Shown: in pieces, positions 13,526 to 19,045 of the stretch | How positions within the stretch are numbered: position 1 is the stretch's first letter | Layout of the letters: the number at the start of each line of letters is the position of its first letter | Source: Xenorhabdus cabanillasii | Lineage (GTDB): Bacteria; Pseudomonadota; Gammaproteobacteria; Enterobacterales; Enterobacteriaceae | Direction: 5' to 3' | Assembly: GCF_003386665.1 (NCBI RefSeq) | Contig: NZ_QTUB01000001.1 | Location: 3,596,001-3,660,000, forward strand | Length of the DNA: 64,000 bases | Position numbers and translations under genes: made by a program | The notes under the pieces: generated by a model | Told to the model about the DNA's origin: nothing | The model's input: the letters and a program-made list of their open reading frames with translations, nothing else | Databases searched by the model: none

Positions 13526-15268
13526 ATGAATACTCATAAAATTAAAGGGATACGATTATTTAGTGCGTTTATTGACTCCTGTTGGAAGGAATCTTACTCC
13601 TTTTCCCGTTTTATCAAAGATGCTATTGCCGGGATCACTGTTGGTGTTATTGCCATTCCTCTGGCAATGGCTCTGGCAATAGGGAGTGGAGTTGCGCCTC
13701 AATATGGGCTGTATACAGCCGCCATCGCGGGTATGGTTATTGCTATTACAGGTGGTTCACGTTATAGCGTTTCCGGACCAACAGCTGCTTTTGTAGTCAT
13801 TCTTTATCCTGTATCACAACAATTTGGTTTGAGCGGCTTGCTGATAGCAACACTTATGTCTGGTGTTATCCTGATTGTTATGGGATTAGCACGTTTGGGT
13901 CGGCTTATTGAGTACATCCCTCTGTCCGTCACACTTGGATTTACTTCTGGTATTGCTATCACTATCGCTACAATGCAGATACAAAATTTCTTTGGACTGC
14001 AACTTACACATGTTCCCGAAAATTATATTGATAAAATTATTGCTCTCTCTCAATCCCTCCCTTCATTTCAGTTGAGTGATACGCTTATTGGCCTGACCAC
14101 TCTTCTGATACTGATTTTCTGGCCTAAATTGGGAATCAAATTACCGGGTCACTTACCTGCTCTGGTTGCCGGCGTCACTATAATGGGAGTCATGCACTTA
14201 TTAGGGCATGATGTTGCCACTATCGGTTCTTCGTTTAGTTACACACTGGAAGATGGAACACAAGGTCAGGGTATTCCACCAATCCTTCCTCAATTTATAC
14301 TGCCCTGGAATCTACCCTCATCAAATTCTTCCGGTATTAGCTGGAATACCGTCTCTGCATTACTGCCCGCTGCCTTTTCAATGGCTATGTTAGGTGCTAT
14401 TGAATCATTATTATGTGCAGTCATTCTTGACGGCATGACAGGGAAAAAACATCATTCCAACAGCGAGCTACTTGGACAAGGATTAGGTAATATTGTTGCA
14501 CCTTTTTTTGGAGGCATTACTGCAACTGCGGCTATTGCCCGCTCAGCCGCCAACGTGCGTGCAGGTGCAACCTCCCCTATTGCCACAGTCATTCACTCTT
14601 TACTGGTATTATTAGCACTGTTATTTTTGGCCCCAATGCTCTCATACTTACCTTTAGCGGCAATGTCTGCGATTTTACTGATCGTGGCCTGGAATATGAG
14701 TGAAGCTCACAAGGTCGTGGATTTAGTTCGTCATGCCCCCAGAGATGACATCATTGTGATGCTGCTGTGTCTGTCATTAACTGTGTTGTTTGATATGGTG
14801 ATAGCTATTACTATTGGCATCGTTCTGGCATCACTTCTGTTTATGCGCAAAATTGCCAACATGACCCGAATTAGTACCTCAGCAATGACGAATACTGAAC
14901 AAGGATTATTAGTTGTCCGGATTAACGGCCCTCTTTTCTTCGCTGCTGCCGAGCGCATTTTTACTGAATTGAAAGAAAAAAGTGCAGAATATCAGATCAT
15001 TATTATGCAGTGGGATGCTGTTCCCGTTCTGGATGCCGGCGGGCTACATGCTTTTCAGGGTTTTGTGCGCGAAATGGCGAAAGGACAAAAGCACGTTGTA
15101 GTCTGTGACATTCCTTTCCAACCCTTGAAAACACTGGCAAGAGCAAAAATCGTCCCCATTGAGGGACAACTTAGTTTTAATGCTACCTTACCTAAGGCAT
15201 TAAAAGAGATGAAGTTTAATTATTCCCCTGAAATTTGTATTTCAGCAGAAAAAGCCAGCCATTGTTAA
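13526..15268 (+). CDS. dauA: C4-dicarboxylate transporter DauA (SulP family, STAS)
   Basis: SulP/SLC26-type inner-membrane transporter of 580 residues, close to E. coli DauA (YchM, 559), which takes up succinate and other C4-dicarboxylates aerobically. The transmembrane region spans about residues 30-430 and contains the highly conserved [15 protein letters not shown] and [20 protein letters not shown] segments. The cytoplasmic STAS domain occupies about residues 460-560 ([15 protein letters not shown]). In E. coli, dauA sits next to prs; here it has moved to the other side of the kdsA operon. Its last 270 bp are the left edge of a tandem duplication that left a second, orphan STAS piece at 16609-16761. 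Confidence 0.93.
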
Positions 15269-15478
15269 GATTCTCCTGGCTTATCCAAATAGGCATCAAA
15301 CTGATTCCGGTGTAATGAAGGAGAGAACGACGAAAATATCACCTTCCTGCACCGGAACAACGTCACCATGGTCGGGTCCGCCACAGCCCCCGAACCACGT
15401 TTTTTACGGGGTTGTCCATGGCAGATTTACTGGCATTCATTGCTTTAGCAGTTTAAATTATCTGGGATGATAACAATC

Positions 15479-15506
15479 TTGACAATTACCGTTTAGGAAC
15501 TATCTT
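15479..15506 (+). promoter_or_regulatory. Promoter of cassette unit 1
   Basis: TTGACA at 15479-15484 and TATCTT at 15501-15506 have a 16-bp spacer. The element is kept unchanged in unit 2. A leader of roughly 150 nt precedes gene A1. Confidence 0.55.
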
Positions 15507-15667
15507 TAATAATACACCGTCATTTCGCACCTCATCCATAATTTATTGCTCTCGTAAGGATCTACGTGTGCAAAATACATATAAACACTTAGAGATCGAA
15601 ATATTACAGATATAGCTGCGAAATATCGGATGTAAAGTTTCTATTTTTCATTATTAAGGGAAACATC

Positions 15668-16027
15668 ATGGAAAGAACATTTTATAACAATTCAGAAGTA
15701 GATATGTTAATATATCTTGGTGCAACTGACATAGATTCGTCCGGTATAGTTCACGAGTCAGAAATCGCCAGAAAGTATATCACCCCTAAGCAAAATGTAT
15801 CTCTATATGTTACAGGAGGCTATATATCACGATTTGATGTTATTATAGAACGAGGAGGAAAGCAACCAGGAAATTTATTTAGTATGGCTTTAAGAGTTCT
15901 GGAGCAAGAACAGAAAATAGCTGTTTTTTTTAAATATGAAAAATTCGTTCTTAATTTTAATAGAATAAATGAAACGGATCCAAATTCACCTGAATCTTTT
16001 CAATTCTCTATAATTCCGATGATTTAG
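15668..16027 (+). CDS. Hypothetical protein A1 of duplicated cassette
   Basis: A 119-residue protein that I do not recognise. It has no signal peptide or membrane span. Alternating hydrophobic and polar residues suggest a beta-rich fold (MLIYLGAT, SRFDVIIERGG, FVLNFNRI). A ribosome site AAGGGA lies about 8 nt before the ATG. Gene B1 follows after 45 bp, clearly as one transcript. The paralogue A2 (17096-17455) is 119 residues with 16 amino-acid differences against only about three silent ones, most of them in residues 12-51. This points to selection for change at an exposed surface, as in toxins, immunity factors or host-contact proteins. That role is inference only. Confidence 0.75.
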   Translation: MERTFYNNSEVDMLIYLGATDIDSSGIVHESEIARKYITPKQNVSLYVTGGYISRFDVIIERGGKQPGNLFSMALRVLEQEQKIAVFFKYEKFVLNFNRINETDPNSPESFQFSIIPMI

Positions 16028-16072
16028 TCACAATATAATATCGCTTAACATAACTAACCAGGGGATTATCAA

Positions 16073-16459
16073 ATGAACATGAATATTGTTCCTCCTCCTC
16101 CTTCTCCTTTTCCTAAACAAACAATTAAGTATGATCCTAACAAATACATATTTAACCGTACTGAATTCGATTTTCACGTGTCTGTATACCTTTACTTCGA
16201 TGGTAAGATACCATTCGCAACAAAATATATAGAAGCTGGTTCGTTTGATCACTTTGATACTCCAGGTATTCCTATATTAACTGGCATAAGATTTCAAAGT
16301 GTCACAAATGCAGTACAACTGCAATATATTGCGCTATCTAATAAAGCAAAAGATCTTATGTCTCATTTTGAAAAACGAATAATTTATCTTAATCAAGGAA
16401 AAGATGTTGAATTTTATTTTTATTTAACAAGTGCTGGATTTCCAAATGATCAAGGTTAA
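16073..16459 (+). CDS. Hypothetical protein B1 of duplicated cassette
   Basis: A 128-residue protein of unknown function, second gene of the cassette. A proline-rich N-terminus (MNMNIVPPPPSPFPK) leads into a beta-rich body (FHVSVYLYFDGK, ILTGIRFQSVTNAVQLQY, VEFYFYL). No signal peptide or membrane span. The start at 16073 is chosen because the same GGGGATTATCAA ribosome region immediately precedes the first ATG in both units. The C-terminus carries an extra AGFPNDQG that B2 lacks, owing to a small local change. Compared with B2, about 20 replacement and 2 silent codon changes are seen after residue 19. Confidence 0.75.
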   Translation: MNMNIVPPPPSPFPKQTIKYDPNKYIFNRTEFDFHVSVYLYFDGKIPFATKYIEAGSFDHFDTPGIPILTGIRFQSVTNAVQLQYIALSNKAKDLMSHFEKRIIYLNQGKDVEFYFYLTSAGFPNDQG

Positions 16460-16580
16460 TATTATTTACGTTTTTTAATCGTTAAGCATTAATTAACGCT
16501 AGTCTATCCAAGGTAAAGCTAGCATATTGATATCATAACCAGGAATATATTTACATTAACATAAATTTCTTAACCATATA

Positions 16581-16608
16581 ATGGAGTGATGAATCATTCA
16601 TCGCTCCA
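16581..16608 (+). terminator. Hairpin at the end of unit 1
   Basis: ATGGAGTGATGA pairs with TCATCGCTCCAT, a 12-bp stem with one G-U pair and a short loop. There is no T-run after it, so it may protect the 3' end or act as a weak terminator. It is repeated at the end of unit 2. Confidence 0.5.
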
Positions 16609-16761
16609 TATTATGCAGTGGGATGCTGTTCCCGTTCTGGATGCCGGCGGGCTACATGCTTTTCAGGGTTTTGTGCGCGAAATGGCGAAAGGACAGAAGC
16701 ACGTTGTAGTCTGTGACATTCCTTTCCAACCATTGAAAACACTGGCAAGAGCAAAAATCGT
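16609..16761 (+). pseudogene. Orphan dauA STAS fragment
   Basis: 153 bp almost identical to 15001-15153 of dauA (I see two substitutions) encode the stretch from [20 protein letters not shown] to LARAKIV. It then runs into spacer sequence. There is no start or transport domain. It is a by-product of the duplication and marks its left breakpoint. Confidence 0.85.
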
Positions 16762-16902
16762 ATCACCTTCCTGCACCGGAACAACGTCACCATGGTCGGG
16801 TCCGCCACAGCCCCCGAACCACGTTTTTTACGGGGTTGTCCATGGCAGATTTACTGGCATTCATTGCTTTAGCAGTTTAAATTATCTGGGATGATAACAA
16901 TC

Positions 16903-16930
16903 TTGACAATTACCGTTTATAAACTATCTT
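16903..16930 (+). promoter_or_regulatory. Promoter of cassette unit 2
   Basis: TTGACA at 16903-16908 and TATCTT at 16925-16930 have a 16-bp spacer. It is the same promoter as in unit 1, with one spacer change. Confidence 0.55.
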
Positions 16931-17095
16931 TAATAATACACCGTTATTTCGCATCTCATCCATAATTTATTGCTCTCGTAAGAATCTACGTGTGCAAAAT
17001 ACATATAAACACTTAGAGATCGAAATATTACAGATAGATATAGCTGCGAAATATCGGATGTAAAGTTTCTATTTTTCATTATTAAGGGAAACATC

Positions 17096-17455
17096 ATGGA
17101 AAGAACATTTTATAACAATTCAGAAGTAGGTATGTTAATATATCTTGGTGCAGTTAACATAGATCCGTTTGGTATAGTTAACGAGTCAGAAATCGCCAGA
17201 AAGTATATCGACCCTAAGCAAAATGTATCTATAGATATTACAGGAAGCTATATATCGCGATTTGATGTTATTATAGAACGAGGAGGAGAGCAACCAGGAA
17301 ATTTATTTAGTATGGCTTTAAGAGTTCTGGAGCAAGACCAGAAAATAGCTGCTTTTTTTAAATATGAAAAATTCGTTCTTAATTTTAATAGAATAAATGA
17401 AACGGATCCAAATTCACCTGAATCTTTTCAGTTTTCTATGATTCCGGTGATTTAG
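17096..17455 (+). CDS. Hypothetical protein A2 of duplicated cassette
   Basis: A 119-residue paralogue of A1 and equally unrecognised. The first 11 residues and the block from residue 87 to 114 are identical to A1. The differences (D12G, T20V, D21N, S24P, S25F, H29N, T39D, L46I, Y47D, V48I, G51S, K65E and others) sit mainly in the first half. The same ribosome site and leader are kept, so both copies are probably expressed. It forms a pair with B2 at the same 45-bp spacing. No frame damage is seen, and intact frames in both copies argue that each is still useful. Confidence 0.75.
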   Translation: MERTFYNNSEVGMLIYLGAVNIDPFGIVNESEIARKYIDPKQNVSIDITGSYISRFDVIIERGGEQPGNLFSMALRVLEQDQKIAAFFKYEKFVLNFNRINETDPNSPESFQFSMIPVI

Positions 17456-17500
17456 TCACAATATAATATCGCTTAGCATAACTAACCAGGGGATTATCAA

Positions 17501-17860
17501 ATGAATATTCTTCCTTCTCTTCCTCCTTTGCCTCATGATAAACCTGATGTGTATGATCCTTACAAAAACATATATAACGCTACTGAATTCAATTTTCACG
17601 TGTCTATATACCTTTACTTCGATGATAAGAAACCATTCGCAACAAAATATGTAGAAGCTAATTCGTGGGGGTACTTTGATATTTCAGGTATTCCTATATT
17701 AACTGGCATAAAATTTCAAAGTGTTACAAATGCAGTACAACTGCAATATATTGCGCGATCTAATACAGCAAAAGATCTTATGTCTCATTTTGAAAAACGA
17801 ATAATTGTTCTTCATCAAGGAAAAGACGTTGAATTTTATTTTTATTTAACAAGTAAGTAA
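17501..17860 (+). CDS. Hypothetical protein B2 of duplicated cassette
   Basis: A 119-residue paralogue of B1. The N-terminus is proline-rich but different (MNILPSLPPLPHDKPDVYDP). The body keeps the core SVTNAVQLQYIA and LMSHFEKRII, with replacements scattered through the rest, such as G-to-D, I-to-K, F-to-W and L-to-R. The end is FYLTSK, shorter than B1. The N-terminal 19 residues have diverged beyond simple point change, possibly through small indels. No signal peptide or membrane segment. Function unknown; likely works with A2. Confidence 0.75.
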   Translation: MNILPSLPPLPHDKPDVYDPYKNIYNATEFNFHVSIYLYFDDKKPFATKYVEANSWGYFDISGIPILTGIKFQSVTNAVQLQYIARSNTAKDLMSHFEKRIIVLHQGKDVEFYFYLTSK

Positions 17861-18006
17861 GGGTTTAACAAATGATCAAGGTTAATATTATTTACGTTTT
17901 TTAATCGTTAAGCATTAATTAACGCTAGTCTATCCAAGGTAAAACCAGCATATTGATATCATAACCAGTAACATATTAACATTAACATAAATTTCTTAAC
18001 AATATA

Positions 18007-18035
18007 ATGGAGTGATGAATCATTCATCGCTCCAT
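18007..18035 (+). terminator. Hairpin at the end of unit 2
   Basis: The same 12-bp stem ATGGAGTGATGA/TCATCGCTCCAT as at the end of unit 1. AT-rich sequence without a T-run follows. The duplication homology ends here. Confidence 0.5.
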
Positions 18036-18098
18036 TATAATAAAAAATCAATAAGATGGCTTTCAAACTGCAATTTGAAAAACAACGGATATACAAAA

Positions 18099-18160: not shown

Positions 18161-19045
<885 letters not shown>

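Follow-up and report, generated by a model that had tools for sequence, protein, structure and literature searches.

An undescribed, mobile two-protein family of Xenorhabdus with fast-changing proteins and near-constant DNA ends

In P2 the accessory hotspot between gpA and gpQ carries defence, partition and some virulence genes (Rousset et al. 2022, PMC9122126, in the part of the paper available). A second system inviting comparison is the PUD-1/PUD-2 pair of C. elegans, two homologous small beta-sandwich proteins forming a heterodimer (PMC3683130, likewise in its available part). The subject of this work is a two-gene unit, A-B, which is present as a tandem duplication of about 1.4 kb in a stretch of 64,000 nucleotides of Xenorhabdus cabanillasii (contig NZ_QTUB01000001.1, positions 3,596,001 to 3,660,000 of the forward strand), referred to below as the window. 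The gene order is sulP - A1 - B1 - A2 - B2 - kdsA, the two outer names being those we presume from the sequence, with a family call made for neither. A-B is an undescribed, mobile two-protein family that combines fast change of the proteins with near-constant DNA ends, as expected of genes in contest with a partner or an enemy.

One A-B unit, shared by the genome G316 and the viral contig L111, lies like the cos-proximal hotspot cassettes of P2 between the portal and a replication gene, where P2 has old and tin (PMC9122126, available part). A-B differs from those cassettes in that it matches no defence or hotspot family and that seven of the eleven units have no phage gene in the stretch read. 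With PUD-1/PUD-2 the likeness is in fold only, the organism is different, and the A-B heterodimer is putative. Structural neighbours given for PUD in the available part of that paper, a pore-forming cytolysin and transthyretin (PMC3683130), also appear for the model of A, and no row for 4jde (PUD) came up when profiles of A and B were run against PDB sequences.

Units were sought by single-protein and profile searches of 30 genomes of the genus, and eleven intact ones were found in seven genomes: three in the window genome, three in G311 and one each in G300, G304, G316, G317 and G318 (three weaker or chance-level rows were excluded from the count). Every intact A gene is followed on the same strand, after 25-59 bp, by B, and the order is always A then B. 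Divergent members retain 16-26 % identity to A1 and 11-24 % to B1, and few residues are invariant across the eleven open units. The distances among the A proteins track those among the B proteins (Mantel r 0.90 for the 11 units; 0.76, p 0.0005, for the 8 divergent ones). The unit G311c (L096:1489-2747) has one A and two different B genes. Possible remnants of A were seen in G312 (L102, where a short frame matches over 30 residues) and in G307 (L101, a stretch with five stops), the former alone being re-found by profile. Weak rows from the genus in L019 and L020 turned out to be neither A nor B genes.

The initial annotation of the window had considered that A and B may be an undescribed system of paired small proteins. 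This holds within Pfam, NCBIfam, PHROGs and PADLOC, none of which gave a convincing match for A or B (best rows at an expectation value, E, of 0.025 or weaker, and below the curated cut-offs where such exist, not every member having been run against every library). Besides the window's own proteins, protein searches returned only proteins named as Xenorhabdus. In a family-wide search of 295 genomes six matches were added to that in the window genome; they score 14-18 bits, come from genomes of 0.2-1.1 Mb and were taken as chance. The family was not found in the Xenorhabdus literature searched, which is no proof of its being unpublished, and the available part of a paper on tailocin fibres (PMC13280938) is without it.

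The second constant feature of the units is a hairpin at the 3' end. Nine of the eleven units end in the stem AATGGAGTGAT...ATCRCTCCATT or a close variant, situated 31-147 bases past the stop codon of B, with 9 to 26 bases between the arms; it is absent from G311a and G311c. Among the 13 pair columns tabulated, nine (3-9, 11 and 12) are paired in all nine units, columns 1 and 2 in eight, column 10 in seven and the outermost column 0 in three, and in one column both sides have changed, from A-T to G-C, in G318. The strict hairpin pattern occurs at seven places in the 30 genomes, all seven directly behind A-B pairs, and nowhere in them when read backwards; the hairpins of X. budapestensis and G318 are variants that the strict pattern missed. 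Three viral contigs contain a similar pattern, one of them being the A-B unit of L111. The occurrences at L110:2361-2399 and L112:5361-5399, with no A or B among the open reading frames (ORFs) listed there, are probably due to chance. The hairpin is not a canonical terminator, a scan of the window for which returned none, and Rfam has no family for it (one chance-level row). Promoter-like sites, counted in the window only, are at chance level (15 versus a mean of 13.9).

The DNA around the hairpin is 79-83 % identical over 71-78 bp between the window and L018, L060 and L037, despite the fact that the proteins of these units are only 18-26 % identical. Upstream blastn matches to L018 and L060 (57-61 bp, 75-81 %) reach into gene A with part or most of their length. 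Clear conservation of the leader is thus limited to the sulP-kdsA units and own3, the third unit of the window genome, and is weaker elsewhere. Over the 24 bases that lead up to the ATG, own3 differs from the A1 leader at one base. It has to be considered whether A-B with its private hairpin constitutes a new self-contained recognition module, a variable binding pair of paralogous beta-sandwich proteins in which the pair itself or a mobilising enzyme would read the palindrome, the content diversifying without limit while the ends remain fixed. We regard such an arrangement as improbable.

Positive selection on both A and B is supported by site models across species, fitted to four sequences with our own implementation, recombination being unfiltered and multi-base changes unmodelled. 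The gain of model M2a over M1a, given as twice the difference in log-likelihood, was 18.4 for A (19.6 once the alignment was trimmed near gaps, 86 codons) and 34.2 for B (19.0 once trimmed, 96 codons). Each trimmed set was also simulated 40 times under M1a; the largest gains were 11.2 for A and 7.6 for B, none of the 40 reaching the observed value. The best description places about 16-28 % of sites at a ratio of replacement to silent divergence (omega) of about 8-19 and leaves the remainder constrained or neutral. Residues assigned to the selected class include 20, 23, 24, 34, 39 and 47 of A and 29, 57, 59 and 60 of B. The neighbouring genes provide a separate yardstick. The replacement divergence (dN) of A exceeded the silent divergence of sulP plus kdsA in five of five comparisons (p 0.007 or less) and that of B did so at p below 0.05 in one of five, the five comparisons sharing sequences and hence not being independent. 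Pairwise maximum-likelihood omega between species was 0.5-1.9 for A and 0.9-2.4 for B, against 0.12-0.17 for sulP and 0.08-0.19 for kdsA (0.07-0.16 for the neighbours by the Nei-Gojobori method, NG86), and was significantly above 1 in no pair of A or B.

Some of these values would also fit relaxed constraint combined with gene conversion, in which non-essential genes drift with dN close to the silent rate (dS) and exchange between units keeps the flanks alike. The one-ratio model M0 gave an omega not different from 1 for either gene (A 1.02, p 0.92; B 1.44, p 0.24), A1 against X. budapestensis lay below 1 (0.52, p 0.046), fragment-like remnants exist in G312 and G307, and silent divergence between the two copies, too, exceeds that of their flanks. 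Drift of this kind is unlikely, however, to be the explanation in view of the advantage of M2a over M1a in either gene, with no simulation reaching it, and of the dN of A above the neighbours' silent rate in all comparisons; moreover, all eleven units are still open, though with few invariant residues, and nine have kept the hairpin.

The initial annotation had arrived at diversifying selection from the two copies in the window, and its conclusion stands on the cross-species site models and on the dN of A relative to the neighbours, but not on the two copies alone. In the codon alignment A1 and A2 differ by 16 replaced and 3 silent codons out of 119, and B1 and B2 by 29 replaced and 2 silent out of 118 aligned, 21 of the 29 replacements lying after the N-terminal stretch, in agreement with the counts reported earlier (A 16 and about 3; B about 20 past the N-terminal stretch and about 2 silent). 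Such counts are not a test of rates, because about four fifths of the sites are replacement sites. By NG86 the omega of the two copies was 1.20 (A, one-sided Fisher 0.49) and 2.24 (B, 0.057), and by maximum likelihood, compared with omega = 1, it was 1.14 (p 0.82) and 2.36 (p 0.16), or 1.63 (p 0.23) for A and B jointly. The pairwise omega of neither gene thus differs from 1, so the copies by themselves do not display the opposite of neutral drift, as had been claimed, and A1/A2 (1.1-1.2) lies near 1, a value which the initial annotation itself had named as speaking against its view. These non-significant tests on two copies are what would be expected of an ordinary tandem duplication in which replacements are in excess by chance, with no special system behind it. 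That account is already disfavoured by the family-wide evidence, namely the specificity of the hairpin, the comparison with neighbour rates, the site models and the co-divergence, and we consider it very improbable indeed.

The flanks of the two copies had been described as nearly identical, which is correct for the upstream flank (5 mismatches in 331 positions), the A-B spacer (1/45) and the duplicated sulP piece (2/153), whereas the downstream flank is less alike (9/155 and 25 gap columns). Replacement sites changed at 58 of 562 positions, compared with 8 of 529 in the upstream flank, spacer and sulP piece taken together (p 2e-10), and silent sites, changed at 9 of 149, also exceed these flanks (p 0.005). 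When the downstream flank is included (17/684), both excesses become weaker (p 6e-9 for replacement and 0.035 for silent sites). An excess of both kinds implies that, in addition to any selection, constraint or exchange keeps the flanks alike or the coding parts have the greater age. The replacements between A1 and A2 are clustered, 11 of the 16 falling within 40 residues (p 0.036).

The duplication had also been called recent, which is doubtful. Between B1 and protein P0004 of strain Flor 8 of 128 residues differ, and between B2 and P0006 of the same strain 8 of 119, compared with 29 of 118 between B1 and B2. Each being closer to its Flor counterpart than to the other, the B1 and B2 forms predate the split from strain Flor. 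Besides the B1-like and the B2-like protein this strain has a third B protein (P0005), two of the three Flor proteins coming from contigs of 584 and 466 bases. The number of copies is accordingly one in X. budapestensis and X. indica and two in the window, with three B proteins for Flor. An assembly artefact is an unlikely source of the second unit, since the genome is in one contig (4.34 Mb), the copies differ throughout, the unit exists in single copy in two other species and Flor has three B proteins.

A and B are probably remote paralogues of one fold, judging from the comparison of their profiles. The latest comparison gave P 5e-4 over 85 collinear columns, with a score of 26.2, whereas 100 column shuffles reached 14.1 at most and the reversed profile 9.6; as members were added, P fell from 0.033 (17 columns) through 0.009-0.015 (82-88 columns) to this value. 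The two profiles also show a weak cross-match, with E 0.015 in both directions in a small set. A is predicted by AlphaFold2 to be a beta-sandwich (mean predicted local distance difference test score, pLDDT, 77). Against PDB sequences the profiles of A and B found chance-level rows only (best E 0.07), and the best row in a viral structure library had E 1.4e-3, the top rows being uncharacterised giant-virus proteins. A differs from domain 4 of the cholesterol-dependent cytolysins in being a lone domain of 97-119 residues, with 3-8 % identity and without the pore-forming part, and is not a full pore-forming cytolysin of about 450-500 residues.

The probable common fold bears on the suggestion that A and B are a toxin/immunity or toxin/antitoxin pair. 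Two small co-oriented genes in fixed order that co-diverge within a mobile unit would suit such a pair, but the two proteins are apparently paralogous, with a common fold, no toxin family was matched in Pfam, NCBIfam, PHROGs or PADLOC, and positive selection at the level of sites is present in both proteins. A toxin with its antidote therefore seems decidedly unlikely. Since A and B seem to share a fold and co-diverge, it is more likely that they form a heterodimer with a variable recognition face.

The settings of the units point to phages in part of the family. In G316 (L037) the order is terminase, portal (phrog_68), a 153-residue ORF, A, B, hairpin, a terminase fragment, an 86-residue ORF and a replication gene (phrog_91). 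The viral contig IMGVR_UViG_2897671627_000014 (L111), the one contig matched in the protein scans of viral contigs, has the same pair in the same order with B 100 % identical, its genes being named by likeness to G316 without a family call; it may represent the same strain as G316. G318 has portal, A, B and a terminase fragment, that is the portal side only of the hotspot. The terminase and terminase-fragment names in G316 and G318 are our assumptions from the sequence. G311a and G311b adjoin terminase-like fragments (judged by eye). The G316 unit occupies the position of the gpA-gpQ hotspot, and the window's own units at the sulP-kdsA site are outside it.

From these data A-B may be viewed as a small mobile accessory cassette, similar to a moron, that would have been spread by P2-like Xenorhabdus prophages and left behind at several chromosomal sites. 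Under this proposal A and B would be paralogous cytoplasmic beta-sandwich proteins acting as an obligate pair, most likely a heterodimer, whose surfaces, where the selected sites would lie, would recognise a fast-changing molecule and hence come under diversifying selection. The likeliest target is guessed, from the location in the P2 hotspot, to be a component of competing phages, and the action would be binding and exclusion rather than catalysis. The computed elements of the proposal are the constant pairing and order, the co-divergence, the family-specific hairpin, the site-level positive selection and, for one genome and one contig, the location in the P2 portal-replication hotspot. We favour the whole, a prophage-spread heterodimeric binding pair under diversifying selection directed most likely at a competing-phage component, with due tentativeness.

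Several results weigh against this proposal. PADLOC gave no match and PHROGs chance-level rows only for A and B, and three queries found no match in 50,697 phage records (a plasmid search with one query was likewise without a match). The seven units with no phage gene in the stretch read include the window's own, and the sulP-kdsA unit has been kept in two other species. As to the common fold, the hhalign probability of A-B homology is just 31 %, the earliest comparison (17 columns) matched other, non-collinear parts, and the model of B is poor (pLDDT 53). The model of A resembles membrane-binding domains of pore-forming toxins, so that an effector fits equally, and P2 hotspots carry virulence genes too (PMC9122126, available part).

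A host-facing binder is almost as likely, given that the fold neighbours are toxin-like and that the family is confined to an insect pathogen. A and B would in that case be the two subunits of a lectin- or membrane-binding protein that reaches the insect or nematode host through cell lysis or non-classical release and diversifies against host receptors, an explanation that is possible though doubtful. If the phage-directed proposal is right and the pair excludes phages, the P2 hotspot gains a non-enzymatic, paired-sandwich type of cassette; if the pair faces the host, an insect pathogen and nematode symbiont gains a new class of binary binding protein. In either case a complete family is at hand for testing, with two tiny genes, a private hairpin as signature and a list of selected sites, and the conserved ends around fast-changing proteins allow units to be gathered easily from new genomes.

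The initial annotation correctly recognised the genes of the duplicated cassette (Table 1) but drew it too small, as the repeat begins inside sulP, at 15001. The A-B unit occupies the sulP-kdsA site in three species, being single in X. budapestensis (L007, L013) and X. indica (L008, L014), which indicates that the window carries a tandem duplication of an older single unit. The counterpart of 15154-15336 (183 bp) is absent from copy 2 in the unit alignment.

Table 1. Positions of the A-B units and adjoining features (window coordinates unless stated)
Feature	Position	Strand	Basis
Tandem unit 1 (sulP tail, leader, A1, B1, hairpin)	15001..16608	+	repeat families D1-D5; unit alignment
Tandem unit 2 (sulP fragment, leader, A2, B2, hairpin)	16609..18036	+	repeat families, unit alignment
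A1, 119 aa, predicted beta-sandwich	15668..16027	+	ORF; AlphaFold2 mean pLDDT 77
B1, 128 aa, partner of A1	16073..16459	+	ORF; homologues
A2, 119 aa, 87 % identity to A1	17096..17455	+	ORF
B2, 119 aa, 75 % identity to B1	17501..17860	+	ORF
Leader and ribosome-binding region preceding A1	15644..15670	+	alignment of 11 units
Leader preceding A2, same as A1 leader	17072..17098	+	alignment of 11 units
Conserved 3' hairpin, unit 1	16581..16609	+	pattern match; pairing table
Conserved 3' hairpin, unit 2	18007..18035	+	pattern match; pairing table
Duplicated 153-bp sulP fragment, 99 % identity to 15001-15153	16609..16761	+	repeat families, alignment
sulP-type transporter gene, 580 aa, open frame, left neighbour	13526..15268	+	ORF; syntenic in L007, L008
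kdsA-type gene, 284 aa, right neighbour	18161..19015	-	ORF; syntenic in L007, L008
own3, third A-B unit of the window genome, very divergent	L060:7589-8304 (genome 3,687,588 on), outside window		

Other units have different surroundings. The G317 unit sits between what we take to be NRPS-type (nonribosomal peptide synthetase) and permease-type genes, and G311c is next to a gene presumably of the sugar-phosphate-mutase type. The unit own3 adjoins on one side a Crystall_3/Membrane_bind gene (Pfam) and on the other a gene assumed to be of the oxidoreductase type; X. budapestensis and X. indica lack it in the corresponding spacer, where the flanks match at 88-91 %.

The Membrane_bind domain is also part of the slime-mould adhesion protein DdCAD-1. 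This neighbour gene, together with a weak VIA list, had suggested that B itself is a Membrane_bind (DdCAD-1) domain, an idea to which profile comparison gave no support; neither A nor B has profile similarity to DdCAD-1-like proteins (Crystall_3 plus Membrane_bind). Membrane_bind (PF14564) proteins are present in 25 of the 30 Xenorhabdus genomes, e.g. at L060:8680-9306, and in none of 14 control genomes, and those listed in Xenorhabdus include one form fused to a crystallin and another that stands alone.

The duplicated sulP fragment, 16609-16761, marks where the tandem duplication in the window starts. At the junction a short A/T-rich similarity, judged by eye, suggests microhomology.

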